Below, in pieces: positions 1,722 through 17,651 of a stretch of DNA of 17,651 nucleotides (within the stretch, counting starts at the first letter, position 1; each line of letters begins with the position of its first letter). The notes under the pieces are model-generated. The model worked only from the letters and a program-made list of their open reading frames with translations, searched no databases and was not told where the DNA came from. The position numbers and the translations under genes were made by a program. Source of the DNA: Anaerolineae bacterium (GTDB taxonomy: Bacteria > Chloroflexota > Anaerolineae > Promineifilales > Promineifilaceae); the NCBI GenBank assembly GCA_028277515.1, contig JANQGC010000230.1, forward strand, positions 1 through 17,651, in the 5' to 3' direction.

Positions 1722-2378
1722 ATGGCCGGAATGATGAGAAATCTCTTTTTATTCATCGTTCTGGTGTTAATATCCGCCTTTTCCGTGGCCCTGGTCGCGG
1801 CGCGTATCTGGTACAGCGGGCAGATCACGTTCATCTTCCTGGTCTGGAATCTGTTCCTGGCCTGGCTGCCCCTGACCTTTGCCTGGCTGGCCTTGCGCTG
1901 GCAGAAACGGCCGTTTATCGCCCTGCCCATGTTCTTCCTCTGGCTGCTCTTTCTGCCCAATGCGCCCTACCTGGTCACCGACCTGATCCATTTGCAAGCG
2001 CGCGCCCCTGTGCCTCTCTGGTATGATCTGATCCTGCTGCTGAATTATGCCTTGATCGGCATTCTGCTGGGTTTCGTCTCTTTACGCATCATGCAGGGCA
2101 TCGTCAACGGCCGCTTTGGCCCGGCAGCGGGCTGGCTGTTTGCCTTTTTTGCGCTCAGTGCCAGCGGATTGGGCATCTACATCGGCCGTTTCCTGCGCTG
2201 GAACAGTTGGGACATCTTTTTACGGCCGATGCCTCTCCTACAAGATATTTGGGTCCAACTTTTCCAACCGCGCACCCTGGCCATCTCCGGCATGCTGGCC
2301 CTGATCATGATCCTGGCCTACATCGTCTTCTCCCTCACCCCCGCGCAATCCTCAAATTCCGAATACCAATCCCTGTAG
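1722..2378 (+). CDS. DUF1361-family integral membrane protein
   Basis: This 218-aa, very hydrophobic protein has about six predicted transmembrane segments (roughly residues 7-28, 35-57, 65-82, 100-122, 135-158, 187-210). The segment FLWLLFLPNAPYLVTDLIHL at about residue 70 is the hallmark of DUF1361; the WNLFLAWLPL segment and WYDLILLL fit as well. The family has no established function. Possible starts are the ATG at 1722 or nearby ATGs at 1731 and 1734; no good ribosome binding site distinguishes them. The last codon and the TAG stop lie inside the flanking palindromic repeat (GTAG at 2375-2378), so the present C-terminus may have been set by repeat insertion. Confidence 0.75.
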   Translation: MAGMMRNLFLFIVLVLISAFSVALVAARIWYSGQITFIFLVWNLFLAWLPLTFAWLALRWQKRPFIALPMFFLWLLFLPNAPYLVTDLIHLQARAPVPLWYDLILLLNYALIGILLGFVSLRIMQGIVNGRFGPAAGWLFAFFALSASGLGIYIGRFLRWNSWDIFLRPMPLLQDIWVQLFQPRTLAISGMLALIMILAYIVFSLTPAQSSNSEYQSL

Positions 2379-2429
2379 AACACCCTTTCCAGGCCTGTCC
2401 TGAGCCTGCCGAAGGATTGTTCACTCGCA
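2375..2429. repeat. BIME copy R1 (variant, truncated)
   Basis: GTAG, then AACACCCT, loop TTCC, AGG, then a 23-nt insertion (2394-2416, beginning CCTGTCCTGAGCC and ending GAAGGA), then TTGTT, CACT and CGCA. The second hairpin of the unit is missing after CGCA. The inserted sequence belongs to a repeat commonly seen in genomes of this phylum (recollection, not searched). The GTAG contains the TAG stop of the preceding gene. Confidence 0.8.
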
Positions 2430-2436
2430 CGATACT

Positions 2437-2487
2437 GTAGAACAACCTTTCCAGGTTGTTAATTCGCAAGCGGCAAGCATGCGCTAC
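2437..2487. repeat. BIME copy R2
   Basis: GTAG, AACAACCT, TTCC, AGGTTGTT, AATT, then a slightly decayed second hairpin, then CTAC. It is 51 nt where the intact unit is 52. One base separates it from R3. The first hairpin is a perfect 8-bp stem with a TTCC loop. Confidence 0.85.
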
Positions 2488-2488
2488 T

Positions 2489-2540
2489 GTAGAACAACCT
2501 TTCCAGGTTGTTCACTCGCAAGCTAGAAAGCATGCGCTAC
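2489..2540. repeat. BIME copy R3, left boundary of the RAYT unit
   Basis: A full 52-nt unit: GTAG, AACAACCT-TTCC-AGGTTGTT, CACT, CGCAAGCT-AGAA-AGCATGCG, CTAC. Read on the minus strand, the second half is also GTAG + 8-bp stem (one T-T mismatch) + a four-base loop. The two REPs are therefore inverted and each starts with GTAG, the tetranucleotide rule known for RAYT-associated REPs. The transposase stop codon (2537-2539) lies in this unit. Confidence 0.9.
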
Positions 2541-3175
2541 AAATATCTACTATAAGTCCAAGGCCACTGATCCCAATATTCAACCAACCCCGCCTTGACC
2601 GGATTCAACGTCACATACTTACGAATTCGCTTGAGTTCATTAATGTCACGCACAAAATGATCATAACTTTCATGCTGCCAAAATTGACCTTTACGTTTCA
2701 ATACATCATTGCATGTTTTGGCCGTGTATCCCTTATGGGACTGCATGATTTTTCTCAAACTGAAATATTCGCCAGTTTTAACATCTATTAGCGGCGTAAA
2801 GATAGCATGGACATGATTTGGCATGATTGTAAATGTGTCCAACTCAACCATATTTTGGTGGAGAAATTTGAGACTATCACTGACCAACGAAGCGACTTCT
2901 TGTTCTTTCAGCCAGGTAGGACCGGATAAACAATTATCAAGAAAGCCATCCCATTTGCCAAATAATCGCCTTTGGTCCAAATAGCGTTGTTCGGCCGTTT
3001 CTTGATTTTCAGGGAGTGCGGAATTACGCTTTTCCAATCGCTTTGATTCTTGTTTCAATTCCCATAATTTTTGGGCCGGAATCGAGCCGGCCAAGCGGTA
3101 AGTAAGGAAAAGAGTCGCTCCGGGTGGTTGAATATGAGGAAGATTGCGCTCGTAAAAAATTTGAAATTCCGGCAT
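2537..3175 (-). CDS. REP-associated tyrosine transposase (RAYT, Y1 family)
   Basis: This 212-aa protein belongs to the IS200/IS605-like Y1 HuH single-strand transposases, in the REP-associated branch. The HuH motif is MPNHVHAIF (His121 and His123). The likely catalytic tyrosine is Tyr150 in SHKGYTAK. The C-terminal signature FWQHESYDHFVRD followed by YVTLNPVKAGLV and WPWTYSRYL is typical of RAYTs. Such enzymes cut and join single-stranded REP hairpins next to a GTAG-type tetranucleotide. The gene is flanked by exactly such repeats: three BIMEs on the left and two on the right, which supports function on these repeats. The stop codon is inside the left repeat. No clear ribosome binding site precedes the ATG. 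The ORF is full length, so the enzyme may be active. Confidence 0.9.
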   Translation of the reverse strand: MPEFQIFYERNLPHIQPPGATLFLTYRLAGSIPAQKLWELKQESKRLEKRNSALPENQETAEQRYLDQRRLFGKWDGFLDNCLSGPTWLKEQEVASLVSDSLKFLHQNMVELDTFTIMPNHVHAIFTPLIDVKTGEYFSLRKIMQSHKGYTAKTCNDVLKRKGQFWQHESYDHFVRDINELKRIRKYVTLNPVKAGLVEYWDQWPWTYSRYL

Positions 3176-3204
3176 GATTTTTTTGATTGTAATCGATTTT
3201 TATT

Positions 3205-3256
3205 GTTGAAAAACCTTTCCAGGTTATTCATTCGCAAGCTGGAAAGCATGCGCTAC
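3205..3256. repeat. BIME copy R4, right boundary of the RAYT unit
   Basis: A 52-nt unit with a decayed first tetranucleotide (GTTG) and first stem (AAAAACCT-TTCC-AGGTTATT, one mismatched pair), then CATT, CGCAAGCT-GGAA-AGCATGCG and CTAC. It starts about 30 bp upstream of the transposase start. One base separates it from R5. Confidence 0.85.
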
Positions 3257-3257
3257 A

Positions 3258-3332
3258 GTAGAACACCCTTTCCAGGCCTGTCCTGAGCCTGCTGAAGGAT
3301 TGTTCACTCGCAAGCTGGAAAGCATGCGCCAC
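3258..3332. repeat. BIME copy R5 (variant with 23-nt insert)
   Basis: GTAG, AACACCCT-TTCC-AGG, a 23-nt insert (3277-3299), TTGTT, CACT, CGCAAGCT-GGAA-AGCATGCG, CCAC: 75 nt, the standard 52 plus 23. The insertion point and the C in the left stem are the same as in R1, so R1 and R5 are one subfamily, not two independent insertions. On the minus strand the far tetranucleotide is GTGG instead of GTAG. Confidence 0.85.
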
Positions 3333-3338
3333 ACGATG

Positions 3339-5400: not shown

Positions 5401-7005
5401 TTATGGTTTGATCATTACCGGCAGCCAGACAGTGTAGGAAGGAATATTATTGGCTGTGATTTCAATGGAGAAGCTGCCTGGTCGCGGGGGTGACTGGCCG
5501 TCGCTGACCTGAAAAGTGAAAGTATCGGCCGAAGTTCCAGGTCCGGTATGCTGGTATAGCAGCAGGTCTTGGTTCACATCTTGCTGGGTAAATGTGTCCC
5601 CTGGAGCGAGGGTTACATCATCAAGGCGTAGTTGGCCAAACAGTGGGGCATTGACCAGAGTATAGATTAGCGCCGCCGGTCCGTCATCCTCATCCATAGT
5701 TAGAAGTTGTTCCTCATCAAGCAGCAAACTGCCTCGCTCCGGCACAGAAACCTGGTGCAGCCTATCCTGATCGTAAAGAATCACCTCATGCCCATCTCGC
5801 GTGGCGGCAAAAACATCCACATCGCCGTCGAAATCGACATCGATCGTAAAGATGCCATAAGCCCCGTCCGCACGATCATCGATCACTCGTTTCGTGAAAT
5901 TGCCCTGCCCATCATTTTCGTGCCAGGCTACCGTATCGTCGTCGACGCTGGCCGAAAGCGCGTCGATATCGCCGTCCCCATCGACATCTGCTCCCAGCAC
6001 CGTGCGCGCTCCAAGCGCATTGCGGTCAATAAACATATTATTAAAGTTACCCTTGCCGTTATTTCTATGCCAGGTCACAGCGGACCCTCCCTGAAGAGCG
6101 CCGAGAACATCCAGATCGCCGTCGCCATCAATATCGGCCGGAAATACATAATAAGCGCCACGGGCGTTGTTCCGAATGATATGTTTCTTGAAATTTTGTT
6201 CACCATCATTTTCATGCCAGGCGATTTCTTTGCTGGAGAAACTGGCCGAGATAATATCGTTGTCGCCATCCCCATCAATATCAGCCATTTCTGCTCGTTT
6301 AGCGTCATCCGCAGTAACGTCGATTACCCTTTCCTCGAAATTCAAATTTCCGTCGTTTTCATACCAGGCGATAATGCCCGCATCCTGGCTAGAAGTGATT
6401 AAATCAATATCACCATCCCGATCCAGGTCGCCGGTGACGATAGAATGGGCACCGTCCGTGCTATCGTCGATGATCGTTCTGCTGAAGCTGCCACCCCCTT
6501 CGTTACGATACCAGGCGAAGGTGTCCGCCGAATAACCGCCGGCCAGGATATCGACATGGCCATCTTGATCGACGTCCCCGGCATGCATGGGATACGCTTC
6601 ATCCAGGTTGGGATCGACCACCTGTTGGAGGAAATTACCCTGGCCGTCATTTTCAAACCAGACCACCTTATCACCACCGCTGTTGGAGGCCGCGGCGTCG
6701 ATATCACCATCACGGTCAAAATCGGCAGCGACCACGGCATGAGTGTTGGTCACGTCGTCGGCCAGGATGTTTTTAGAGAAAACCATTGTACCGGACACGA
6801 TTTGCGGCAATACATTGTCATTTGCTTTGTCGGCAAGGGGCATGTCCCATCGCCATTCAACAGATAATTGCTCGCCAAAAAGTGTCTTACTCAAAGAAGG
6901 CTGTGAGAATTGGGGGGCAGGAAGGGTTGTACTGCCCATGTTAATCAAAAAAGAGATTAACCCCAACAAAATAGTCCATTTAACAATGTTAATGATAAAT
7001 TGCAT
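5401..7005 (-). CDS. Secreted FG-GAP/VCBS-repeat protein with cadherin-like C-terminal domain
   Basis: The start is the ATG at 7005-7003, preceded by GGGGGT; an upstream TTG in the same frame is less likely. The 534-aa product has an N-terminal hydrophobic export segment (about residues 5-23). It then has seven FG-GAP/VCBS blades of about 46-47 residues, each with a calcium-binding loop of the form DxDxDGDxD (for example DFDRDGDID, DIDGDGDLD, DVDFDGDVD) followed by VAWHENDGQGNF-type strands, consistent with a closed seven-bladed beta-propeller. Residues of about 425-510 resemble a cadherin-like/CSPG repeat (LIYTLVNAPLFGQLRLDD, then DTFTFQVSDG). The C-terminus, YTVWLPVMIKP, matches the short LP-rich tail found on many exported Chloroflexota proteins, perhaps a sorting tag. 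The role is probably adhesion or matrix binding at the cell surface. Confidence 0.85.
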   Translation of the reverse strand: MQFIINIVKWTILLGLISFLINMGSTTLPAPQFSQPSLSKTLFGEQLSVEWRWDMPLADKANDNVLPQIVSGTMVFSKNILADDVTNTHAVVAADFDRDGDIDAAASNSGGDKVVWFENDGQGNFLQQVVDPNLDEAYPMHAGDVDQDGHVDILAGGYSADTFAWYRNEGGGSFSRTIIDDSTDGAHSIVTGDLDRDGDIDLITSSQDAGIIAWYENDGNLNFEERVIDVTADDAKRAEMADIDGDGDNDIISASFSSKEIAWHENDGEQNFKKHIIRNNARGAYYVFPADIDGDGDLDVLGALQGGSAVTWHRNNGKGNFNNMFIDRNALGARTVLGADVDGDGDIDALSASVDDDTVAWHENDGQGNFTKRVIDDRADGAYGIFTIDVDFDGDVDVFAATRDGHEVILYDQDRLHQVSVPERGSLLLDEEQLLTMDEDDGPAALIYTLVNAPLFGQLRLDDVTLAPGDTFTQQDVNQDLLLYQHTGPGTSADTFTFQVSDGQSPPRPGSFSIEITANNIPSYTVWLPVMIKP

Positions 7006-7054
7006 TACCAAAGACCCCCAATGGATCAAAAAATACAAGAAAGAAGACCCCAGT

Positions 7055-7085: not shown

Positions 7086-7262
7086 GAACAATATAACTAG
7101 TTTATATGATTAATGGGTAGGAACAGTTCAGCTAATGAAATGCTTATGAATCGGCATATTTGTTAATCAAATAATTCATAATTGTTGCCGGTTTGTTGTC
7201 AATTATGCAACAACGATCCCTTAACTTGCCATGTAAATCAAATCCATCAAGGAGGTTTACAA

Positions 7263-7469
7263 ATGGCAAGGAAAGGAAACCAGGCCCAACTAGATCAATT
7301 AGTAGAAGCGATCAAAGCGAATCCAAACCAAAAAGCCGGCTGGTTTGCCCGGTTACTAGGCCGCGATAACAAATCTATCATGCGTGCTCTTCCCCAGTTA
7401 GAGGATAGAGGTGAGTTATTGATGGAAGATGAAGACGGCCGGATCAGCTGGTTTGGCCGTCGTCGATGA
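7263..7469 (+). CDS. Small winged-helix-like DNA-binding protein
   Basis: This 68-aa protein starts at the ATG at 7263, which follows a strong AAGGAGG site 7 nt upstream; an in-frame ATG at 7182 lacks one. The sequence reads as a winged helix: a basic N-terminus, helix DQLVEAIKANPNQKAGWFAR, recognition-like helix NKSIMRALPQLEDRGELL, then a hairpin wing DEDGRISWFGRR. It lies 146 nt upstream of the WYL-Cas3 gene on the same strand, so it may regulate the CRISPR-Cas locus or be co-transcribed with it, but it may also be an unrelated neighbour. It matches no Cas family I know. A TTGTTG/CAACAA inverted repeat lies about 60 nt upstream and is a candidate operator. Confidence 0.6.
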   Translation: MARKGNQAQLDQLVEAIKANPNQKAGWFARLLGRDNKSIMRALPQLEDRGELLMEDEDGRISWFGRRR

Positions 7470-7615
7470 CCAAACCAGCAACAAAAAGGTCCCAAAAGTG
7501 GCGTTATTTGGCAACACTCTGTGGTAAGATTTCATAGAAACCAGTATTCAAGTTGAATCCTAAATATTGGGCGATCACATTCGCGAAAATTTGGATTCCA
7601 TCGTTTGGAGGGCAA

Positions 7616-10600
7616 ATGGCCGGCAAAGAACGAAAAAGATACGTCTATATCGAGGAAATGATCAATCGCTATGTGCAGCGCGCCTGGTCGGACGCCCAGA
7701 TGGCGGAGGCGTTGGGCACCGATCGCAGTAACGTGTATCGAATGCGCACCGAAGTTTTAGAATATCAGATGGGAATTCCCATATATGAAGAATCTCGCGG
7801 CCGTTATCGTATTAACCGGGAACACTTTGTATCTTATGTGCGCCTGAATCCCGCGGAAAGCCTGGCGCTCTATCTGGGAGGGCGTCGCTTACAGCAGCAA
7901 ACCAAAACCGGGCAATATGATGTCGGCTCAGCATTGAAGAAACTGGCGGAGGCCTTAAGAAAACCACTCATGCAAAACCTGGTGCGCTCGGCGCAGTTTG
8001 TCCTGGACCAGGAGCAAGATGAGCGACAGGCCCAGGTGATGCGGGTCCTGGTTGAAGGTTGGATCAACCATCGTCGCGTGCGCATCAAACACCGAAAACT
8101 ACACGGCGACCTGCGCACCTATATCGTGAGTCCCTACCAGTTAGAGCCGGCCGTTTGGGGGGATGGAACCTATCTGATCGGAGAAAGTGATTACCATAAT
8201 GACCTGGCAACCTTCAAGGTTGCGCGTATTGAATCGGCCACCCTGACCGCCGAACCGTTCACCATCCCAAAAGATTTCGACAGCCACAAATTGTTACAGC
8301 ATGCCTGGGGCATTTGGCACACTGGCCAGGAACCGGTAGCCGTTCAACTAAAATTTTCCCCTTATGTGACCCCTCGCGTCAAAGAAAGCATATGGCATCC
8401 GGAGCAAACCATCCAGGATGATGACGATGGGGGCTGCATCTGGCAGGCAGAAATCGCCGAATGGCGGGAGATGGTTCCATGGGTGCGAGGTTGGGGGAGT
8501 GATGTAGAGGTGTTGGAGCCTCAGCCCCTGCGCCAATTGATAACCGGACATGTCCGCCGCCAGGCTGAAATATACGGGGTTCATATGGAAAATACAACCG
8601 CTCAAACACGTTTGCTAAAGTTGTGGGGCAAGACATCGACCGTGGATGACCTCTATCATCCTGCCCTGTTTCACATGATCGATGTCGCCCATGTTTCCCA
8701 ACAACTGCTCAGCCCAAAAGCATCCTCCCGTTGGCGGAGAATATTAGGTGATGCATTCAACAGCGATGCGCAGGTCTTGTTTGAATGGTTGCCCTGGTTC
8801 ATTGCCCTTCATGATATTGGGAAGATTTCGGTTCCCTTTCAAGCGCAAAATTCTTTTCAACGTGCACGATTAGAGAAACTTGATTTTAAGTTTGGCTCAT
8901 ATTCAAATCACCACAAGACGCTTCACCATACCCTATGTGGGCATCTAGCTCTCAATGAATGGGTCAAAGATTTTCCCGATCATTGGCGACAGGTGATTCT
9001 GGATGTAATTGCCGGACATCATGGATATTATCAAAGGCCGGAAAGGGAGCAGAAAAGGCAGTGGAAAACCCTCCAAGAACCCCAAGAATGGAGGGAGTTA
9101 AGAACAGAAGCGGTCGATGTTTTACGTTCGATCTTTTTGCTCAATGAACCTGCTGCCTGGCCGCAACCGCAGAATATATCAGCGGCTATTGTAGCTTTAA
9201 ATGGATTTACCATTCTTTGTGATTGGCTGGGGTCGGATGAGAATTACTTTCCTCCAACTCCATACACGACCCTGCTTGATTATTTACCTCAAAGTCGGCG
9301 GCGAGCGAGAGATCGTGTGCAATCGGCCGGTTTTTTTACGCCGACATTAAGTACGGTTGGGGTTGATTTCAAAGAATTATTCGGCTGGCAGCCACGACCA
9401 CTGCAAGAGGCCGTTGCCGATATCCCAATCCGATTGTTGGCTCAGCCGACACTGACCATTATCGAAGCGCCAACTGGGGAAGGAAAAACCGAGGCTGCTC
9501 TGACCCTCGCCCATCGAATCGGACGCCAACAAGGTAGTGACGAAATGTACATCGCCCTGCCGACAACAGCTACCAGCAACGCCATGTTCGGCCGAATTCA
9601 AGAACATTTGCGGGATCGCCTGGGATTATCTGCTACGTCCGTGCGTTTGATCCACGGCCAGGACTTTTTACTCAGTGACGATTTATCCGTAAAGCCACTG
9701 GGCAATGGTGAAGATCAACCGGCAGAGCATCCAGCCTTAACCTGGTTTCAACCGAAGAAAAGGGCGCTGTTAGCCCCATTTGGCGTGGGCACAATCGATC
9801 AGGCTGAATTATCAGCTTTAAACGTGCGTCACAATGCCCTTCGTCTGATTGGCCTGGCCGGCAAAGTTGTCATCCTGGATGAGGTTCACGCTTACGACAC
9901 CTATATGACCACCATCATTAAGCGTATGCTGCAATGGTTGTCGGCATTAGGGTGTTCCGTCATCTTACTCTCAGCAACCTTACCTATTTCGCGGCGTAAG
10001 GAGCTGCTCGAAGCCTACGGAGGTGACGCAGTTGAATTTGAAGACGATGAAGCATATCCTTTGTTAATTTGTGCCGGTAGTCAAGGGCATTTTAAAGCAG
10101 TCCCTAATCCCATCCAGCCGCAGAAAACGATCCAGTTGAATTTCATACACTTTAATGAAGATGAGTGGCCAGAAAAGGCGCGCTGGCTGGTTGAAAAGGC
10201 GCAGGATGGGGGCTGTGTGTGCTGGATAACCAACACCGTTCATCGCGCCCAACAAATGTTTCTTGCGCTCAAGGCCATTATTCCCCAGGATATTGAATAT
10301 GACTTACTTCATGCCCGTTTTCCAGTCAACGAACGGCAAAAACTTGAAGAAGTAATATTAAGGAAATATGGAAAAGAAGAAATCGGTAACCGGCCGCAAA
10401 AAGCGATCATCATCGGTACACAGGTATTGGAACAGAGCCTGGACATTGACTTTGACCTGCTGGTTTCTGATTTAGCACCGGTCGACCTGGTTTTACAGCG
10501 CATCGGCCGTCTGCACCGCCATCTAGATCGAACAAACCGCTCCCATGCCCATCCCAATCCGCACGTTTACATCAACGCTGAGGTCGACCAGGCGGGGCAA

Positions 10601-11275
10601 GTCGTAGAAGGAACTGACAAATTTTATACCCTTTATCTCCTGCAAAAAAGCTGGTTGGCCTTGCAAGCTCTAGAGGAAGAACAGGGAGCGATCATCCTAC
10701 CGGCTGATTACCGGCCTTTGGTAGAACAGGTATATGAGGATAGCCAACTGGAAGAAAATACTCCTCTAAAAGCATTACGGCTTAAAAGGCATAAGAAAGA
10801 AACAATATATGAAGATGAAGCTGAGCTGCGATTGAGCAATAAGCCTGAAGCCGATTGGCCGTTTTGGAAGGGGCAACGGGCTGAGTTTAAAGAAGACGAA
10901 GAAAGCAACAACTGGATTGTTGCCCAGACGCGTTACCAGGAACAGGAGAGCATCACTCTCATTCCGTTAAAAAAGGTGGACAATCATTTCGTCCGCCTGT
11001 CTGGCCAATCCAAACAGATCCGCCTGGATGAACCGCTCAATCGCTCAGATCAGATCGAACTGCTGCGGCATAGCCTAAAAGTCAGCAACCGCACGGCCGT
11101 TGAAGCCATTAAAGCGCAGGCTGAGGCTGAAGGTCTTCCGGCCCTTTTTACTCGCTCAAGCCTGCTAAAACATTGTTATCCTCTTTGGCTCGTTGATCGA
11201 ACTTGGATAAGTATGGAGGATCAAAATCCGGTCGTCCTTACATTGGACCCGGAGTTGGGTTTACTGATTGAATAA
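7616..11275 (+). CDS. cas3: HTH-WYL-WCX regulator fused to type I-E Cas3 nuclease-helicase
   Basis: The start is the ATG at 7616, with GGAGGG 5 nt upstream; a longer TTG frame (7553) lacks support. The 1219-aa product is two proteins in one. Residues of about 1-70 form a winged HTH (SDAQMAEALGTDRSNVYRMR). Residues of about 140-225 are a WYL domain (TYL at 185-187, then FKVARI), followed by a WCX extension to about 325 (VQLKFSPYV, WHP, VRGWGSDVEVLEP, LR). Cas3 follows: LLKLWGK at about 332, HD nuclease residues His348, His353, His399-Asp400 (HDIGK) and His468-His469, then SF2 helicase motifs I (EAPTGEGKT, 617-625), II (DEVH, 755-758), III (SAT, 786-788), V (VLEQSLDIDFD) and VI (QRIGR, 961-965), and a C-terminal domain. 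All catalytic motifs are intact. Cas3 is recruited by Cascade and degrades the non-target strand. The fusion suggests DNA-binding or ligand control of Cas3 or of cas transcription (inference). Confidence 0.93.
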   Translation: MAGKERKRYVYIEEMINRYVQRAWSDAQMAEALGTDRSNVYRMRTEVLEYQMGIPIYEESRGRYRINREHFVSYVRLNPAESLALYLGGRRLQQQTKTGQYDVGSALKKLAEALRKPLMQNLVRSAQFVLDQEQDERQAQVMRVLVEGWINHRRVRIKHRKLHGDLRTYIVSPYQLEPAVWGDGTYLIGESDYHNDLATFKVARIESATLTAEPFTIPKDFDSHKLLQHAWGIWHTGQEPVAVQLKFSPYVTPRVKESIWHPEQTIQDDDDGGCIWQAEIAEWREMVPWVRGWGSDVEVLEPQPLRQLITGHVRRQAEIYGVHMENTTAQTRLLKLWGKTSTVDDLYHPALFHMIDVAHVSQQLLSPKASSRWRRILGDAFNSDAQVLFEWLPWFIALHDIGKISVPFQAQNSFQRARLEKLDFKFGSYSNHHKTLHHTLCGHLALNEWVKDFPDHWRQVILDVIAGHHGYYQRPEREQKRQWKTLQEPQEWRELRTEAVDVLRSIFLLNEPAAWPQPQNISAAIVALNGFTILCDWLGSDENYFPPTPYTTLLDYLPQSRRRARDRVQSAGFFTPTLSTVGVDFKELFGWQPRPLQEAVADIPIRLLAQPTLTIIEAPTGEGKTEAALTLAHRIGRQQGSDEMYIALPTTATSNAMFGRIQEHLRDRLGLSATSVRLIHGQDFLLSDDLSVKPLGNGEDQPAEHPALTWFQPKKRALLAPFGVGTIDQAELSALNVRHNALRLIGLAGKVVILDEVHAYDTYMTTIIKRMLQWLSALGCSVILLSATLPISRRKELLEAYGGDAVEFEDDEAYPLLICAGSQGHFKAVPNPIQPQKTIQLNFIHFNEDEWPEKARWLVEKAQDGGCVCWITNTVHRAQQMFLALKAIIPQDIEYDLLHARFPVNERQKLEEVILRKYGKEEIGNRPQKAIIIGTQVLEQSLDIDFDLLVSDLAPVDLVLQRIGRLHRHLDRTNRSHAHPNPHVYINAEVDQAGQVVEGTDKFYTLYLLQKSWLALQALEEEQGAIILPADYRPLVEQVYEDSQLEENTPLKALRLKRHKKETIYEDEAELRLSNKPEADWPFWKGQRAEFKEDEESNNWIVAQTRYQEQESITLIPLKKVDNHFVRLSGQSKQIRLDEPLNRSDQIELLRHSLKVSNRTAVEAIKAQAEAEGLPALFTRSSLLKHCYPLWLVDRTWISMEDQNPVVLTLDPELGLLIE

Positions 11276-11363
11276 TCATACCCCCACAAGGTGGGGAGAT
11301 TTTAGTCAAACTCGTTTCGTAAGCCCACTAAACTGGGCCACCCCCAATAAGATTGGGGAGCGA
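11274..11363 (-). ncRNA. Stand-alone pseudo-crRNA (two degenerate CRISPR repeats around a 32-nt spacer)
   Basis: Read on the minus strand, pseudo-repeat 1 (11363-11334) contains TCCCCA and TGGGGGTG and ends in the handle-like GTGGCCCA (true handle GTGAACCG). Pseudo-repeat 2 (11301-11274) contains TCCCCAC, CTT, GTGGGGGT, against TCCCCAC, ACAG, GTGGGGGT in the real repeat at 17623. Differences in repeat 1 are compensated in the stem (CCCCAAT/ATTGGGG). Aligned by their stems, the repeats leave a spacer of exactly 32 nt (11333-11302), the standard type I-E length. A promoter lies just upstream. Cas6e should be able to process such hairpins. Known analogues are CreA- and CreR-type crRNA-like regulators encoded inside cas loci. 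Alternatives are an old inverted two-repeat array or, for 11281-11304 read on the plus strand, a terminator for cas3 (GC hairpin then ATTTT). Confidence 0.8.
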
Positions 11364-11373
11364 GTTCATGTAT

Positions 11374-11401
11374 ATTATAAGGGAATTTTGCAAATTTTCA
11401 A
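11374..11401 (-). promoter_or_regulatory. Sigma70-type promoter of the pseudo-crRNA
   Basis: On the minus strand, TTGAAA (11401-11396) is followed after 16 nt by a perfect TATAAT (11379-11374). The expected transcription start, about 7 nt later (near 11367), is at the 5' edge of pseudo-repeat 1. There is no protein-coding gene on this strand for it to serve. Confidence 0.75.
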
Positions 11402-11422
11402 CCTATAAGCCCAGTAAACCTT
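11388..11422 (-). promoter_or_regulatory. Predicted Cascade target of the pseudo-crRNA, with AAG PAM
   Basis: The spacer starts GTTTAGTGGGCTTA. The minus strand at 11419-11406 reads GTTTACTGGGCTTA, identical except at position 6. In type I-E guides every sixth base is flipped out and not read. The three bases immediately 5' (11422-11420) are AAG, a canonical type I-E PAM. Similarity stops after position 14, as expected for a guide that should bind but not trigger full interference. The 32-nt footprint covers the -35 of the pseudo-crRNA promoter and abuts the likely -35 region of cas8e. Confidence 0.75.
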
Positions 11423-11423
11423 A

Positions 11424-11452
11424 TCGCATTGCAATCTATTTCTTGTTAGAAT
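11424..11452 (+). promoter_or_regulatory. Candidate cas8e operon promoter
   Basis: An extended -10 motif, TGTTAGAAT, occupies 11444-11452 (TAGAAT hexamer at 11447-11452). The -35 position (11424-11429) is poor. Transcription would start near 11459, giving a leader of about 80 nt before the cas8e ATG. The PAM of the predicted Cascade site ends 1 bp before this -35 region. The call is tentative because the -35 is weak. Confidence 0.4.
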
Positions 11453-11539: not shown

Positions 11540-13102
11540 ATGACTGATCCATCATTTAATCTGTGGCAAAATCCCTGGATAACCGTTGAAGACGACCAGG
11601 GTTTCTTATCCGATCTGAGCATTTCGCAGCTCTTGACGGATGCAGGCAAGTACCGGGGGCTTTTCGATCCCTCGCCATTGGTCATCGTGGCTATTCACCG
11701 GCTGTTAGTGGCAATCGTCCAGGATATATTTGATCCTCGATCCGAATCGGATTTGCAAGAGTTATGGCAGAAAGAGAACTTTCCTCGGTCTAAAATTGAA
11801 GCTTTTGGTGAAGAATTTGGTCATCGATTTGATCTCTTCTCTGAAGAAATGCCCTTCATGCAGTCGGCCGATATTCCCTTGTACCCGGAAAAATGGGGCA
11901 AGGGCAAATCCGTAGGCTATCTCTTTCATGAGCAAACTGCCGGCACGGCTGTCACTCATTATAACCATACCTATGACGATGAACAGCATTGCTGCCCCAT
12001 CTGCCTGGCTAAGGGCTTGCTGAGCATTCCCCCCTTTGCTACCGCAGGGGGAGCAGGGATCAGGCCATCGATCAACGGCGTACCGCCCGTATATATTATC
12101 CCTGGGGGTGAGACATATTTTCAATCCCTCGTCGCATCCTTGCTGACCCCACCATTCAAGCCCGGGGTAAGAGACAAGAGAGATGACCGGCCCTGGTGGC
12201 GACGCGATCCGCTGATTGGCAAAAAGGAGGAAGTGCTGCGCGTCGGCTATTTGCACAGCCTGACCTTTCCGGCGCGGCGTGTTCGCCTGCATCCCCAGCA
12301 GCTTAGCAAACCCTGCACCCGCTGCGCCCGCCAGACAGCCTGGAGCGCGCGCGAGATGACCTATGAGATGGGCCAGAGCCGACCCAAAGATGCCGCATTT
12401 TGGCAAGATCCATTTGTTGCTTACCGTGTTCGCGAAAAAGATCAGCCCTTGCCTATTCGCCCGGTTGAAGGTCGTGCTCTCTGGCGCGAATATGCAGGTC
12501 TTTTCTTGCCTCACCAAAAGGATGAAAAGTTTTATAGACCCCTGGTGATTGACCAGTTGGAGGAGATCGCAGAAGATTTGCCTTTTGACGAATCAACGCC
12601 GATTCCTTTCCAAACGATTGCTTTTCGCACGGATATGAAGATGAAATTCTTTGAATGGCAGCTCAACGGCTTCAAGGTACCTACGACATTACTTTCTGAT
12701 ATTTTTGCTGAAGAAAAGATATCCGCTGGTCTTGAGTTTGCTGCCAGGGTGGATAGAAGTTTGAAGTTTACCTTCCGCCAATATTTTGCCGGCGAGGGAA
12801 AAAGCGAGCACCATGCCCAATTGAAGCGGCGTTTATCCCGGAAATATTGGCAGGATCTGGCTCCTCATTTTCAGCAGTTTGTGCAGGATTTAGCCGGGAC
12901 TAACAACATGGAAGAGCCTTTTCATGATTGGCTGGATGGGGTTGTACGAACAGCGATAACAACATTTAATGACACGGCCGAAATGGTGGGCAATGATGCA
13001 GTTAAAATTCGCCAGCGGGTAAATGCGATCAGCCATAACCGATCTAAGATTTATAAAATGCGCCGGGACCTGTTTCCCCGGCCGGAGGAGGTACCTTTCT
13101 AA
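11540..13102 (+). CDS. cas8e: Cas8e (Cse1/CasA), large subunit of Cascade
   Basis: This 520-aa protein starts at the ATG at 11540, with AGGAGG 6 nt upstream. It is close to the usual Cse1 length (about 500). NLWQNPWITV at the N-terminus, PFMQSADIP, KSVGYLFHEQTAGTAVTHYN and PPFATAGGAGIRPSINGVPP are family hallmarks. A putative zinc site is formed by CCPIC (Cys152 and Cys155) and CTRC (Cys259 and Cys262). The protein recognises the PAM, opens the target DNA and recruits Cas3. It is the first gene of the Cascade operon. Its stop and the cse2 start overlap by one base (TAATG). A 264-nt regulatory gap with the pseudo-crRNA precedes it. Repression at this promoter would shut down the whole effector complex. 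Confidence 0.95.
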   Translation: MTDPSFNLWQNPWITVEDDQGFLSDLSISQLLTDAGKYRGLFDPSPLVIVAIHRLLVAIVQDIFDPRSESDLQELWQKENFPRSKIEAFGEEFGHRFDLFSEEMPFMQSADIPLYPEKWGKGKSVGYLFHEQTAGTAVTHYNHTYDDEQHCCPICLAKGLLSIPPFATAGGAGIRPSINGVPPVYIIPGGETYFQSLVASLLTPPFKPGVRDKRDDRPWWRRDPLIGKKEEVLRVGYLHSLTFPARRVRLHPQQLSKPCTRCARQTAWSAREMTYEMGQSRPKDAAFWQDPFVAYRVREKDQPLPIRPVEGRALWREYAGLFLPHQKDEKFYRPLVIDQLEEIAEDLPFDESTPIPFQTIAFRTDMKMKFFEWQLNGFKVPTTLLSDIFAEEKISAGLEFAARVDRSLKFTFRQYFAGEGKSEHHAQLKRRLSRKYWQDLAPHFQQFVQDLAGTNNMEEPFHDWLDGVVRTAITTFNDTAEMVGNDAVKIRQRVNAISHNRSKIYKMRRDLFPRPEEVPF

Positions 13103-13605
13103 TGGAAAAAACAAAAGATAATGTCGATCTGTTCATTGAGCGCCTGGAGGGTCTAGATGCCGGTGCAAAAGCGCGTTTGAAGCGCAACGCCGGCAATACC
13201 ATGAGCCGGTCTCGCGGCGCGCTGCCCATCTTTTTCCGTATTTTACCTTATGGAATTGCCCGCTACCGGGAACCCTGGTATTTCCTGGTGGCTACGCTCT
13301 ACCCACTGGCTGACGCCGGAGGTGGGGGAAATATCGGCCAATCCTTGCGGATCGCCCGCCGCAATCATCCTGAGCGCGAAAAGGGATACGATCGTCGTTT
13401 TGAAGTTCTCTTGGATGCTGACAAGGTCCAACTTCCCTTTCGCCTGCGCCAGATCGTGCGCTTGCTGAATTCGGCCGATATTCGCCTGAACTGGCCGCAA
13501 CTCCTGCGCGATCTGCAAGCATGGGATCACCCCAGACGATATATTCAAGAAAGGTGGGCGCGTTCTTATTACACCATGCAGCCCGAGGAAGAGCAATCAA
13601 CTTAA
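13102..13605 (+). CDS. cse2: Cse2 (Cas11e/CasB), small subunit of Cascade
   Basis: This 167-aa protein is near the typical Cse2 length (about 160) and, as expected, rich in basic helices: ALPIFFRILPYGIARYREPW, NIGQSLRIARRN, RRFEVLLDADKVQLPFRLRQ and LNWPQLLRDLQAWDHPRRYI. Two copies line the belly of Cascade and stabilise the R-loop. The start codon overlaps the cas8e stop, so the two are translationally coupled. The stop codon TAA (13603-13605) lies at the edge of the 7-bp duplication of the following MITE-like element, which therefore inserted right at the end of this gene without changing the body of the protein. Confidence 0.93.
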   Translation: MEKTKDNVDLFIERLEGLDAGAKARLKRNAGNTMSRSRGALPIFFRILPYGIARYREPWYFLVATLYPLADAGGGGNIGQSLRIARRNHPEREKGYDRRFEVLLDADKVQLPFRLRQIVRLLNSADIRLNWPQLLRDLQAWDHPRRYIQERWARSYYTMQPEEEQST

Positions 13606-13783: not shown

Positions 13784-14881
13784 ATGTTAATTCAAATTCA
13801 TATGTTGCAAAATTATGCCCCCTCAAATTTAAACCGGGATGATACCGGAGCGCCTAAGGATGCCGTATTTGGCGGCTTCCGCCGCGGCCGAATTTCCAGC
13901 CAATGTATCAAAAGGAGCATTCGCCGCTCAGAAGCCTTCGCCGACGCTTTTGAAGGAGATGATCTGCTGGCAAAACGAACCCAATTGTTACCCCGTCTGG
14001 TGGATCAAGAATTAGCCGAGCGCGGTGTTGATGAGAATGAGCGGGAAGTGATCACCAGCAAACTAGCCACCCTGGGTGGGGGAAAGGCGACAGACGACAT
14101 GAAAACGCGTTTGCTTGTTTTCCTGGCCGACGGCGAAGTTAAAATCGTGGCTGATAAATTGTTGGAACTATACCGTGAGAGGGGAGAGAAAGCCTTCGCC
14201 AAATTAAAAATCGCTCAATTGGAAGACGCGATGGCCCACGCCACACCACGCTCTGTGGATGTCGCCATGTTTGGGCGCATGACCACTTCCACGGCATTTG
14301 AGGATGTCGAAGCGGCCGTGCAGGTTGCTCATGCCCTCTCCACCAATGCCCTGGAACAGGAATTTGATTATTTCACTGCCGTCGACGACCTTTCCGGTGA
14401 ATCCGGAGCCGGGATGATTGGCGATGTGGAATTTAACAGTTCCACCTATTATAAATACTTCAACATCCACTGGGAGCAACTCCTGCAAAACTTAGGCGGA
14501 GACAGGGAGATCGCTGCCCGTGCTATGACCGCCTTGATCGAAGCCGCGGCGACGGCCCAACCCAGTGGGAAACAGAACAGCTTTGCTGCCCAAAACTTGC
14601 CTGATCTTGTGCTGCTTGAAATTCAGGAGAGAAATATCCCCATCAGTTATGCCAACGCTTTCCTGAACCCGGTCGGCAATTATAACGGTTCGTTAATGGA
14701 CAACTCCATCAAACAGTTAAACGATTATGCTGCCAATTTGCGCCGCGCTTATGGTTTGAACGGCCGTCGTGCTTTTTTCTCCGTGTTGGATGTTCAGGTC
14801 AAAGACGCCGCTGATCAGAAATCCTTGAGCGCCCTCTGTGACTGGGCTGAACAGCAGATCAAGGAGGTGGCCGATGGCTAA
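13784..14881 (+). CDS. cas7e: Cas7e (Cse4/CasC), backbone subunit of Cascade
   Basis: This 365-aa protein matches the family length (about 363). IQIHMLQNYAPSNLNRDDTG, then FGGFRRGRISSQCIKRSIRR at the N-terminus, is diagnostic. GRMTTSTAFEDVEAAVQVAH and FDYFTAVDDL with FNSSTYYKYF are conserved in the fold and thumb. Six copies form the helical backbone that grips the crRNA and kinks out every sixth base. The ATG is preceded by AAGGAGA. It lies 178 nt after cse2, a gap mostly filled by the MITE-like element; without it the gap would be about 66 nt. Its last 8 nt overlap the start of cas5e. Confidence 0.95.
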   Translation: MLIQIHMLQNYAPSNLNRDDTGAPKDAVFGGFRRGRISSQCIKRSIRRSEAFADAFEGDDLLAKRTQLLPRLVDQELAERGVDENEREVITSKLATLGGGKATDDMKTRLLVFLADGEVKIVADKLLELYRERGEKAFAKLKIAQLEDAMAHATPRSVDVAMFGRMTTSTAFEDVEAAVQVAHALSTNALEQEFDYFTAVDDLSGESGAGMIGDVEFNSSTYYKYFNIHWEQLLQNLGGDREIAARAMTALIEAAATAQPSGKQNSFAAQNLPDLVLLEIQERNIPISYANAFLNPVGNYNGSLMDNSIKQLNDYAANLRRAYGLNGRRAFFSVLDVQVKDAADQKSLSALCDWAEQQIKEVADG

Positions 14882-15563
14882 TACTTTGTTTTTGCGCCTG
14901 GAAGGGCCGCTCCAATCTTGGGGGGAACGTGGGCGATGGAGCATTCGCGATACAGCCCCTGAACCAACCAAATCCGGGGTGATCGGTCTCATAAGCTGTG
15001 CCATGGGTCTGCGCGATGATGAACCGATCCGCTCCCTTTCTGTCCAAACCCGCATGGGAGTGCGGCGGGATAAAGCGGGCACACTCCTTACTGATTACCA
15101 CACCATTGGTGGTGGTGCCCGGGAGCCGATGCTGCTGACTGCCGAGGGCAAGCCTAAGAAAAGCAGCGGCAAGCCGCATACGGAGATTTCCTATCGTGAT
15201 TACCTGGCTGACGCCTCTTTTTTAGTCGCTTTGCAGGGACCATCTACCCTGGTTGAGGAAATGGCCTCGGCCGTGCAGGACCCCGTGTGGGTCGTCTTTT
15301 TAGGCCGAAAGGCCTGCCCACCTGTCCGGCCTCTTTTCGATGGCCTGGGTCAATATGATAGTTTGCAGCAAGCCTTAACTATCCATAATTGGCCGCAGGG
15401 TGAAGATCGGCTGACGGCCGTCTTACAATGCTCACCGGCCGATGACGATGCCCAGGCTCGCCTGGATCACCTTCATGCTCGCAGCCATCGCCTGTTTCAC
15501 CCCCGATACACGCGAACGGTGACCCTTTTCGCTAAACCTTCTGCCAGGGAGGAAGCATCATGA
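14874..15563 (+). CDS. cas5e: Cas5e (CasD), crRNA 5'-handle-binding subunit
   Basis: This 229-aa protein starts at the ATG at 14874, inside the end of cas7e (ATGGCTAA), with AAGGAGG upstream. LFLRLEGPLQSWGERGRWSI followed by RDTAPEPTKSGVIGLISCAM is the Cas5e signature, with the glycine-rich turn and the thumb of a RAMP fold. GRKACPPVRPLF and the HPRYTRTV tail also fit. Cas5e caps the foot of Cascade and holds the 8-nt crRNA handle, GTGAACCG for the array repeat. It overlaps cas6e by 4 nt (ATGA). Confidence 0.95.
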   Translation: MANTLFLRLEGPLQSWGERGRWSIRDTAPEPTKSGVIGLISCAMGLRDDEPIRSLSVQTRMGVRRDKAGTLLTDYHTIGGGAREPMLLTAEGKPKKSSGKPHTEISYRDYLADASFLVALQGPSTLVEEMASAVQDPVWVVFLGRKACPPVRPLFDGLGQYDSLQQALTIHNWPQGEDRLTAVLQCSPADDDAQARLDHLHARSHRLFHPRYTRTVTLFAKPSAREEAS

Positions 15564-16216
15564 CCGATCTTTGTCTTTCTCGTTTGATGCTGGATCCCCG
15601 TTCTCGCCAGGTGCAGCGGGAATCGACAGACGTGTACCAGATGCACCGCACGATTATGAAAGCCTTTGAGAAGAACCGGCAGGAGTCGGGCGTTCTATAC
15701 CGGCTGGAAAATCAAAAAAGGAATAACCAGTTAACTCTTCTGGTGCAGTCAACAGCGGAACCTGATTGGAGTTCGCTGGACGGCCGATCCTACTTACAAG
15801 CGGTTGACCCGTTTTCCGGTTTGCCCAACCCGGCCGTAAAACGAATAAACATGCAGTTTCAAAAGGGACAAGTCCTCAACTTCCGTTTGCGTGCCAATCC
15901 GAGTATCAAAAAGAAACGCGAAGGCAGACACAGCAATCGCGTGCCCCTTGTGCGCGAAGAAAAACAGGAAACCTGGCTCAAGCGTAAGGGCCAACAGCAC
16001 GGCTTCTCACCTGTGCGCTTTTGGATCAGTGGCCAGGGAAACCGTTTGGGTTGGAAAAAGAATGGTCAGAAACGGAAAAAGCTAACGATATATGATGTAC
16101 AGTTTGACGGTGTATTGGCGGTCGTCGATCCCCAGACATTCGCTGATAGCCTGATCCTGGGCATCGGCCCGGCCAAAGCCTTTGGCTGCGGGCTTCTATC
16201 ATTGGCTCCGGCGTAA
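15560..16216 (+). CDS. cas6e: Cas6e (CasE), crRNA-processing endoribonuclease
   Basis: This 218-aa protein has the N-terminal strand LCLSRLMLDPRSRQVQ and DVYQMHRTIMKAF with the likely catalytic His29 (His20 in the E. coli enzyme). Its C-terminal GIGPAKAFGCGLLSLAP is the glycine-rich RAMP motif. It cuts each repeat at the 3' base of the hairpin and stays bound. It is slightly longer than the E. coli protein (199 aa), with a lysine/arginine-rich insert around residues 110-180. Its start overlaps the cas5e stop as ATGA. It would also have to process the pseudo-crRNA, whose stems keep the GC-rich closing pairs but have altered loops. Confidence 0.94.
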   Translation: MTDLCLSRLMLDPRSRQVQRESTDVYQMHRTIMKAFEKNRQESGVLYRLENQKRNNQLTLLVQSTAEPDWSSLDGRSYLQAVDPFSGLPNPAVKRINMQFQKGQVLNFRLRANPSIKKKREGRHSNRVPLVREEKQETWLKRKGQQHGFSPVRFWISGQGNRLGWKKNGQKRKKLTIYDVQFDGVLAVVDPQTFADSLILGIGPAKAFGCGLLSLAPA

Positions 16217-16303: not shown

Positions 16304-17215
16304 ATGCAAGATTTACATGAACTACCCAAACTGCGAGACAGCTTAAGCTATTTATATGTGGAACATGCCATACTGGATAAGAAACAACAGGCAGTAGAAT
16401 TTATCAAAGAGGACGGCCGCACCCTGATCCCCGTCGCCAACCTTTCCGTGCTCCTGCTTGGCCCAGGAACCAGTATCAGCCACGCGGCGATTAAAACACT
16501 GGCCGAAAATGGATGTTCCGTGATTTGGACCGGCCAGGATGCCACCCGTTTTTACGCCCAGGGCAAAGGAGAAACCCGCCGCGCCCAGCGCCTGCTGCAC
16601 CAGGCCCGGCTGGTCACCGATCCGCGTAAACGGGAACAGGTGGTGATCAACATGTATCGCCATCGCTTTGACTATACTCTGCCGCCCGACTTGACCTTGC
16701 CCCAGGTGCGTGGCATGGAAGGCGTGCGCGTGCGCGAAGCATATGCCCAGGCTGCCCGCAAATATGGCGTCACCTGGCGCGGCCGTCGCTATGATCGCAG
16801 CAAATGGGCTAAATCCGATCCCATCAACCGCGCCATCTCAGCGGCAAACGCCCTGCTCAATGGCCTGTGCCATGCGGCCATTGTGTCCGGAGGCTATTCA
16901 ACCGCCCTGGGCTTCATCCATACCGGCAAACAACTCTCCTTCGTTTATGACATTGCTGATTTGTACAAGGTTGATTTAACCATTCCCCTCGCCTTTGCCA
17001 TCACCGGCGAATCCGAAGAAAAAGTAGAAACGCGCGTGCGGGAGGCCTGCCGGGAAAAGTTTAAAGAGGACAGGCTGCTCAAGCGCATCTTGCCGGACAT
17101 CGATCAGCTGTTGACATTGCCCGATCAAACGTTGGAGAAACAGCAAGAAAGCGGCGATATTGATGCCGATCCTGCCTTGCCGACCCGTTTATGGCACAGG
17201 CTGGAAGGGAACTAA
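16304..17215 (+). CDS. cas1: Cas1e, spacer-integration nuclease
   Basis: This 303-aa protein has the Cas1e start LRDSLSYLYVEHAILDKKQQ and all metal-binding residues: Glu139 (GMEGVRVREAY), His206 (LGFIHTGK), and Asp216 and Asp219 (YDIADLYK). These match Glu141, His208, Asp218 and Asp221 of E. coli Cas1. With Cas2 it integrates new spacers at the leader end. The ATG follows AAAGGAGG. The 87-nt gap after cas6e contains a 10-bp palindrome (TCGTCGACGA, 16217-16226) and otherwise AT-rich sequence, so a separate promoter for the adaptation genes is possible. Confidence 0.96.
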   Translation: MQDLHELPKLRDSLSYLYVEHAILDKKQQAVEFIKEDGRTLIPVANLSVLLLGPGTSISHAAIKTLAENGCSVIWTGQDATRFYAQGKGETRRAQRLLHQARLVTDPRKREQVVINMYRHRFDYTLPPDLTLPQVRGMEGVRVREAYAQAARKYGVTWRGRRYDRSKWAKSDPINRAISAANALLNGLCHAAIVSGGYSTALGFIHTGKQLSFVYDIADLYKVDLTIPLAFAITGESEEKVETRVREACREKFKEDRLLKRILPDIDQLLTLPDQTLEKQQESGDIDADPALPTRLWHRLEGN

Positions 17216-17225
17216 GGAGAAACAA

Positions 17226-17579
17226 ATGGTTGTCATGATCCTGGAAAAAGTGCCCATATCCTTACGCGGCCAGTTAAGCCGTTGGTTGATCGAGCCGCGG
17301 ACCGGCGTCTTCGTTGGCCACATATCGGCTATGGTTCGAGAAAAATTGTGGGAAAAGTGCAGCAAAAGTAAACAAGCCGGCGGTGTCGTGCAAATCTGGT
17401 CGACCAACAACGAACAGCGCTTTCAAATGCGCATCACCGGCGACACCAGCCGGCGCATCATCGAACTGGATGGATTACAGTTGATCGAAATACCCCACGA
17501 TTTGGACCAACTAAAAAATGGAAGTATCATCAAGAGTCGGCTCGCTCAACTGCGCAAAACCGCAATATCTGGGGATTAA
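17226..17579 (+). CDS. cas2: Cas2e, adaptation complex subunit
   Basis: This 117-aa protein starts at the ATG at 17226, with AAGGAG upstream; an upstream in-frame ATG would overlap cas1. MVVMILEKVPISLRGQLSRW followed by LIEPRTGVFVGHISAMVREK is diagnostic of the type I-E Cas2 (CT1978 family). It is longer than the E. coli protein (94 aa), as in many relatives. It forms the central dimer of the Cas1-Cas2 integrase. Ten bases separate it from cas1, so the two are co-expressed. Its 3' end contributes one arm of the leader hairpin. Confidence 0.95.
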   Translation: MVVMILEKVPISLRGQLSRWLIEPRTGVFVGHISAMVREKLWEKCSKSKQAGGVVQIWSTNNEQRFQMRITGDTSRRIIELDGLQLIEIPHDLDQLKNGSIIKSRLAQLRKTAISGD

Positions 17580-17622: not shown

Positions 17623-17651
17623 GTAATCCCCACACAGGTGGGGGTGAACCG
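17623..17651 (+). CRISPR. First repeat of a type I-E CRISPR array (truncated by window end)
   Basis: The 29-nt sequence has the type I-E form: GTAAT, CCCCACA, CAGGTGGGGG, TGAACCG. Its last eight bases, GTGAACCG, are the expected crRNA 5' handle. It follows cas2 as usual and would be transcribed rightward. The window ends at the last base of this repeat, so no spacer is visible and the array itself is inferred from its position and sequence. Confidence 0.88.

Follow-up and report, generated by a model that had tools for sequence, protein, structure and literature searches.

The window, by which we mean the whole 17,651-nt stretch of DNA analysed here (its own locus is labelled W in all comparisons between loci), carries every part of a type I-E CRISPR-Cas system: cas3, cas8e, cse2, cas7, cas5, cas6e, cas1 and cas2, together with a single copy of a 29-nt repeat. 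On the plus strand, a WYL-WCX-Cas3 fusion with HD, helicase and Cas3_C domains (7553..11275; start codon uncertain) is followed by cas8e (Cse1; 11540..13102), the first gene of the operon presumed to be repressed, and then by cse2 (13102..13605), cas7e (13784..14881), cas5e (14877..15563; start uncertain), cas6e (15560..16216), whose product is the presumed processor of the RNA discussed below, cas1 (16304..17215) and cas2 (17226..17579). The first true CRISPR repeat, GTAATCCCCACACAGGTGGGGGTGAACCG, stands at the window's end (17623..17651, plus strand). Among the best 120 of 744 Cas8e relatives, the closest other protein is 63 percent identical, identities running from 63 to 57 percent over the closest set (P0002 to P0010), and all 4 relatives that carry an organism name belong to Chloroflexota. 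The gap between cas3 and cas8e measures 264 nt in the window, and it is this gap that contains the element with which we are mainly concerned.

A preliminary description of this DNA, made from the sequence alone, had proposed that a crRNA-like regulatory guide is combined here with a WYL-Cas3 fusion. The fusion itself is borne out, and loci without the element carry it too: WCX and WYL domains are found at the Cas3 N-terminus in the window and in loci L003, L004, L005 and L024 (with WYL below the cut-off in L005). In L106 (11008-14691), an HTH-WYL-WCX protein is encoded as a separate gene directly upstream of an unfused cas3, and a separate gene of this type is a possible source of the WYL-Cas3 fusion.

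Several other features of these records deserve mention in their own right. Small HTH-like ORFs occur between the element and cas8e in L001 (2691-2903) and L017 (2675-2878), as well as upstream of the WYL-Cas3 gene in the window (7260-7469); they resemble TrmB, SarA and ArsR, and HVO_A0114, all under Pfam cut-offs. Elsewhere in the window, several 55-57-nt repeats (2375-3333) surround a minus-strand ORF (2537-3175) that resembles a REP-associated transposase (MPNHVH motif); a protein encoded on the minus strand at 5401-7038 has a hydrophobic N-terminus and recurring D-x-D-x-D-G motifs, its DNA repeating with a period of 147 nt; and the window starts with a near-perfect inverted repeat (1-105), the 43-nt arms of which are 98 percent complementary with 19 nt between them. 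A tandem family with 139-nt spacing lies around position 12,000 of L003, downstream in that cas locus record.

A crRNA-like element between cas3 and cas8e

The preliminary description had reported, on the minus strand between cas3 and cas8e, two degenerate copies of the locus's own CRISPR repeat that keep their stem blocks, show a compensated stem change in one copy, flank exactly 32 nt and follow a TTGAAA-16-TATAAT promoter, and each of these observations was confirmed for the window, where the copies span 11362-11273. Pseudo-repeat 1 (psiR1, 11334..11362) has the stem CCCCAA/TTGGGG and carries at its 3' end the sequence GTGGCCCA, which would become the 5' handle of the RNA. It is followed by the pseudo-spacer (psiS, 11302..11333), a 32-nt guide, and by pseudo-repeat 2 (psiR2, 11273..11301), in which the stem CCCCAC/GTGGGG is kept and the handle part is degenerate (GTATGATT). 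The pattern CCCCA-N3..8-TGGGG occurs three times in the 17,651 bases, in psiR1, psiR2 and the true repeat, compared to an expectation of 0.20, and none of 200 shuffles reaches 3. At the sixth stem pair, psiR1 has A-T where the true repeat has C-G. Ungapped identity to the true repeat is low (14/29 for psiR1 and 13/29 for psiR2), and loop lengths differ. In the predicted fold of the window's RNA both the psiR1 and the psiR2 hairpins form, and psiR2 was scored as terminator-like on both strands in a terminator scan. An Rfam scan of the window gave no family at gathering score.

A promoter scan identified the TTGAAA-16-TATAAT sequence (11401-11374) as sigma-70-like, with 11/12 matches to consensus, and ending 11 nt ahead of psiR1. 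Its -35 hexamer (11396..11401) and -10 hexamer (11374..11379), both on the minus strand and separated by a spacer of 16 nt, would form the promoter of the element, which we refer to below as creR. Facing the other way, a putative extended -10 of a cas8e promoter (TGTTAGAAT, 11444..11452, plus strand) has no good -35 and is missed by the consensus scan.

The preliminary description did not include a target for the guide, and the match reported here, which with its PAM spans 11422-11406, was found in the present analysis. Guide nucleotides 1-14 have their counterpart 86 nt upstream, also on the minus strand, at 11419-11406; 13 of the 14 positions agree, the sole mismatch being at position 6. The rule that sixth positions remain unpaired applies to type I-E Cascade as well as to the type I-B guide discussed below. 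The target seed (GTTTACTGGGCTTA, 11406..11419, minus strand) has directly on its 5' side an AAG trinucleotide (11420..11422), the presumed PAM by comparison with the E. coli type I-E system. The whole 32-nt protospacer (11388..11419, minus strand) is identical to the guide at 18 of 32 positions and covers the putative creR -35; the seed match itself sits between this hexamer and the putative cas8e promoter. The best run of the guide elsewhere in the window, ignoring sixth positions, is 8.

Two published systems provide a context for a match of this kind. According to the available part of PMC5904413, AAG is the best PAM for E. coli type I-E, Cascade can bind with AAG and only a few paired seed positions, and interference requires more than 18 bp. 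For haloarchaeal CreA, the available part of PMC8501985 reports that a discontinuous seed of 10 nt suffices, that nucleotides 6 and 12 stand outside the pairing and can be changed without harm, and that a change at any of the other ten is harmful.

Guide and target in related loci

Related loci were gathered from a scan of genome contigs, which yielded 26 loci (Chloroflexota by title, except L015, which is labelled Rubrobacter), and from overlapping genome searches with matches in 48/396 genomes (class of L001's genome), 28/301 (its order), 6/25 (order of L023's genome) and 32/400 (phylum), DNA being taken for at most 30, 20, 20 and 30 matches, respectively. The 106 sequences include 103 with a Cas8e start (L022, L044 and L045 were dropped), representing 84 distinct regions upstream of cas8e; L001, L017 and L023 also bear the labels L028, L029 and L030. 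The gap before cas8e is mostly shorter than 50 nt. An element was found in 5 of the 84 distinct regions (W, L001, L017, L023 and L071), on the strand opposite to cas8e in the first four and on the cas8e strand in L071, where the target lies downstream of the element.

All five elements are recovered by our final, handle-based detector, the handle pattern of which was set after the first examples had been seen. Earlier stem detectors with a loop limit of 6 miss L001, and their output was dominated by CRISPR arrays and tandem repeats. A stem-only detector, which requires a stem and no handle, permits loops of up to 8 and retains the three best candidates per locus, misses L017 (psiR1 loop of 9), which was found by reading, and at L023 the site is masked by a terminator palindrome. 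Runs of at least 11 were returned by the stem-only detector in many other loci, and these we judged to be chance, because none has a same-strand AAG as in W, L001 and L071, and many are opposite-strand palindromes.

A Cas8e tree built by a quick method without bootstrap, and covering 82 of 84 rows (L026 and L075 were too short), recovers a six-member clade (SH-aLRT 98) of W, L001, L017, L023, L003 and L024, and places L071 in a distant clade. Neither by eye nor with the handle-based detector could an element be seen in L003 or L024, both of which have wide gaps. Presence of the element requires at least three state changes on the tree, a number as low as which was reached in 0 of 500 label shuffles. 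The simplest reading is that the clade had the element from early on, that one or two losses left a wide gap behind, and that the element of L071 arose separately. A 75-repeat CRISPR array (L106, 158-4722) adjoins the cas operon to which the L071 element belongs, and in a search of four genomes with a looser pattern we found an array in G604 and a two-repeat fragment in G002, whereas G001 and G005 showed nothing array-like; a first, stricter pattern had found arrays in 0 of the 4.

The starts of the five guides all differ (W GTTTAGTGGGCTTA, L001 TAAAAGAAATACATCTTGT, L017 ATAAACGTGCTGT, L023 AGACGCGGTCAGTT, L071 ATTGGAGTGAGCGT), and yet each guide matches its own cas8e upstream region at all seed positions save some of 6, 12 and 18. 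Within these stretches, the mismatches of each guide to its own target fall at position 6 in W, at 6, 12 and 18 in L001, at 12 in L017, and at 6 and 12 in both L023 and L071; the PAM is AAA in L023 and AAG in the other four. Across the 84 regions and 169 handle-preceded candidate guides, 6 loci have at least 11 informative matches if positions 6, 12, 18 and so on are ignored, compared to 0 loci if any of the other five phases is ignored and 1 locus (L017) if no position is ignored. The 6 are the five element loci and L085 (11 informative matches), which was taken as chance: its match is on the opposite strand and flanked by CTG, and the guide lies 1086 nt upstream of cas8e.

When the five guides are compared with the 83 other regions, the maxima are 8, 8, 8, 9 and 8. 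Shuffling the first 20 nt of each guide and comparing these with the 250-600 nt upstream of cas8e (the 264-nt gap for W), the PAM not being required, gave matches as good as those observed in 5 (W), 1 (L001), 79 (L017), 4 (L023) and 21 (L071) of 200,000 shuffles. In the L071 genome, none of the 74 spacers of the 75-repeat array scores above 7 when compared with the gap, whereas the pseudo-spacer scores 12. On the evidence of these alignments, the co-divergence of guide and target is the pattern that Cascade-guided pairing predicts, and the preliminary proposal of a stand-alone crRNA-like regulatory guide gains support both from the AAG-flanked target and from the four further loci with different, self-matching guides. 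With 11 to 16 informative matches in the five loci, against the more than 18 bp given for E. coli interference in the available part of PMC5904413, the complementarity would be too short for interference.

Other features of the element are kept to varying degrees. The 32-nt spacing, which had been expected to recur in relatives, does not: the pseudo-spacer measures 32 nt in W, 33 nt in L023 and L071, and only 21 nt in L001 (within 2513-2570, minus strand) and 20 nt in L017 (within 2520-2600, minus strand). Covariation of the stems in related gaps had been put forward as a check. Six-position pairing is seen in all ten pseudo-repeat stems, and pairs 1, 2, 3, 5 and 6 each show two-sided changes in one copy or more, but the stems were picked for being paired, so that their pairing describes the element and does not test it. 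Of the six fixed positions of the handle NTGANCC(G/A), psiR1 retains 5 in W, 6 in L001, 3 in L017, 5 in L023 and 6 in L071, and psiR2 retains 1, 4, 2, 1 and 2, respectively; the score of 3 for L017 refers to one stem register, and ATGAACCA precedes the L017 guide. A handle found mainly in psiR1 is what a gene would need if its RNA retained the first repeat's handle but nothing beyond the stem from the second repeat.

The predicted folds likewise vary. In the L023 and L071 RNAs the pseudo-repeats pair mutually and the two hairpins are not formed, the L071 fold being little better than shuffles (z -1.53). In L001 and L017, the handle end and seed start are predicted to pair with the guide's 3' end (CCGTAA/TTACGG and CCAATA/TATTGG), and these two loci may represent a variant with short hairpin-forming guides. 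A terminator scan of the sequence after the element flags W and L023 and none in L001, L017 or L106, near which hairpins with T runs are visible by eye (uncounted).

The best-scoring cas8e-side extended -10 lies 24 nt beyond the PAM in W, 13 nt in L001 (where two other candidates score equally high), and 22 nt in both L017 and L023. In L017 a -35 (TTGACT) overlaps the PAM, and in L071 the PAM falls inside the -10 of TTGACA-17-TAAGAT, directly before cas8e. With a stricter consensus scan, a cas8e-side promoter is recovered where proposed in L017 and L071, and none is recovered there in W, L001 and L023. As well as covering the putative creR -35 in W, the protospacer covers a candidate creR -10 in L001. 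The matched site may be the cas promoter: the consensus scan speaks for this in L017 and L071, and the extended -10s of the other three loci are weaker candidates.

Probable autorepression and alternative explanations

We consider it very probable that the element is a creR gene, specifying a CreR-type autorepressor RNA of the type I-E cas genes. This reading takes as its starting point the anatomy, seed match, PAM and guide-target co-divergence observed in the five loci, from which we infer the promoters, transcription, processing, loading, repression and release that follow. A short minus-strand RNA would start near 11367 and be cut by Cas6e at the pseudo-repeat stems, and its crRNA-like product, comprising the GTGGCCCA handle and the 32-nt guide, would load into the system's own Cascade. 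The complex would then read AAG and the discontinuous seed at 11419-11406 and, once bound, would sit between the creR and putative cas8e promoters, which diverge, blocking cas8e and the genes downstream of it and probably creR too. Because pairing would end after the seed, Cas3 would not be engaged and the chromosome would remain uncut. Repression would ease when array crRNAs compete for Cascade or when an anti-CRISPR removes it, release by competing crRNAs or anti-CRISPR proteins being a feature of the CreR literature in the available parts of PMC12737573 and PMC13131331.

By analogy with E. coli, the strongest doubt concerning repression is raised by inert partial-match Cascade sites: in the available part of PMC5904413, off-target Cascade sites with partial matches left local expression unchanged, the authors expecting most such sites to lie inside genes and arguing that intergenic ones would be inert as well, and promoter repression is reported to fall with PAM-distal mismatches. 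Within our own data, the AAA PAM of L023, the lack of an element in L003 and L024, the folds of L023 and L071, the missing consensus promoter on the cas8e side in W, L001 and L023, and the post hoc handle filter also speak against the creR reading.

If the element were what is left of a small, decayed CRISPR array that had a self-matching spacer and no longer functions, this would account for pseudo-repeats that are degenerate (14/29 and 13/29 positions identical in W; 17/29 and 15/29 in L071) and for an occurrence as patchy as 5 in 84. However, decay is not expected to keep the pairing positions of guide and target matched while both diverge between loci, nor to preserve the handle chiefly in the one repeat that needs it, and five loci share a PAM-flanked match close to cas8e; we regard decay as very unlikely. 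Still more improbable, to the point where we give it hardly any credence, is the suggestion that the stem-loops resemble repeats by accident and serve between cas3 and cas8e as terminators or as a device for transcription collision. This would explain the terminator-like character of psiR2 on both strands, but it leaves the handle, the seed match, the spacing of 32 nt and the other four loci unaccounted for.

The remaining alternative, unlikely but the least so of the three, is a CreTA-like module, in which a CreA antitoxin represses a small toxic RNA (creT) located in the gap, and not cas8e, rendering cells dependent on Cascade. The psiR1-psiS-psiR2 plan and the pairing at positions 1-5 and 7-11 are shared with haloarchaeal CreA (available part of PMC8501985), a small toxin RNA leaves few marks, and in L001 and L017 the element is separated from cas8e by a short ORF. 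Against this, those ORFs resemble small HTH proteins, albeit below Pfam cut-offs, the presumed leader in the window is about 80 nt, and the position of the L071 PAM, inside a -10 right before cas8e, leaves no room for a toxin gene there. No creT or toxin gene was recognised at the element loci, although the window could hold a small toxic RNA.

Returning to CreR, we also entertain, as a tentative extension that we think somewhat doubtful in its entirety, that within the Cas8e clade it may be an inherited and fast re-targeted double switch. Guide and target would be rewritten as a pair in each lineage, with selection at seed positions only, and the PAM would lie beside the -35 region so that the bound complex shuts off both cas and creR. 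The sub-form in L001 and L017 would have lost a third of its guide, would hold handle and seed in a hairpin, and would control the small HTH-like gene together with cas8e.

Relation to known regulatory guides

CreRs autorepress type I-B, I-E and V-A systems, according to the available part of PMC13131331. As described in the available parts of two reviews (PMC12737573, PMC13131331), a CreR is a crRNA-like RNA encoded in a cas locus and using the system's own effector, has partial complementarity to the cognate cas promoter, and is generally not coupled to a toxin. The window has repeat-like elements around a spacer-like stretch in a cas locus, and a guide the 5' end of which is partly complementary to a PAM-adjacent site upstream of the cognate cas operon, and on these sequence-level features the element fits CreR. 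Since type I-E CreRs have already been reported, it would add a member to a kind already described. Compared with the available review text, our loci differ in their Chloroflexota host, in a target that lies between the creR and cas8e promoters and covers the creR promoter in W and L001, and in the 20-21-nt guides of L001 and L017. We found no published report of a CreR from Chloroflexota in a literature search that took in, in part, the best 20 of 226 and 8 of 16 matches, the primary CreR paper not being among them.

Other repeat-derived RNAs are more distant, as far as the available parts of the sources describe them. The CreA of Haloarcula CreTA (PMC8501985, PMC9458426) has in common with our element two degenerate repeats around a pseudo-spacer, a PAM-adjacent promoter target, and pairing that covers positions 1-5 and 7-11 but leaves out 6 and 12; it differs in controlling a toxic RNA, in being type I-B and in its TTC PAM, whereas the target here precedes cas8e and L071 is without room for a toxin. 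Racr, an RNA anti-CRISPR (PMC10651486), is likewise a repeat-like RNA, but consists of virus-encoded solitary repeats, in contrast to two pseudo-repeats and a guide inside a cas operon. The scaRNA of Francisella (PMC9458426) is a degenerate-repeat RNA that directs partial pairing and repression, but it works with Cas9 on a lipoprotein operon.

If the creR reading is correct, RNA-guided self-control of cas genes would extend to the type I-E systems of Chloroflexota. Moreover, regulatory guides may be recognisable from sequence alone, by a nearby target that matches all seed positions save each sixth, and this sixth-position signature, in combination with the phase control, would offer a direct method of searching for regulatory guides in type I loci. 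The same signature would show natural selection in genomes following a rule that the structure of Cascade sets for pairing.
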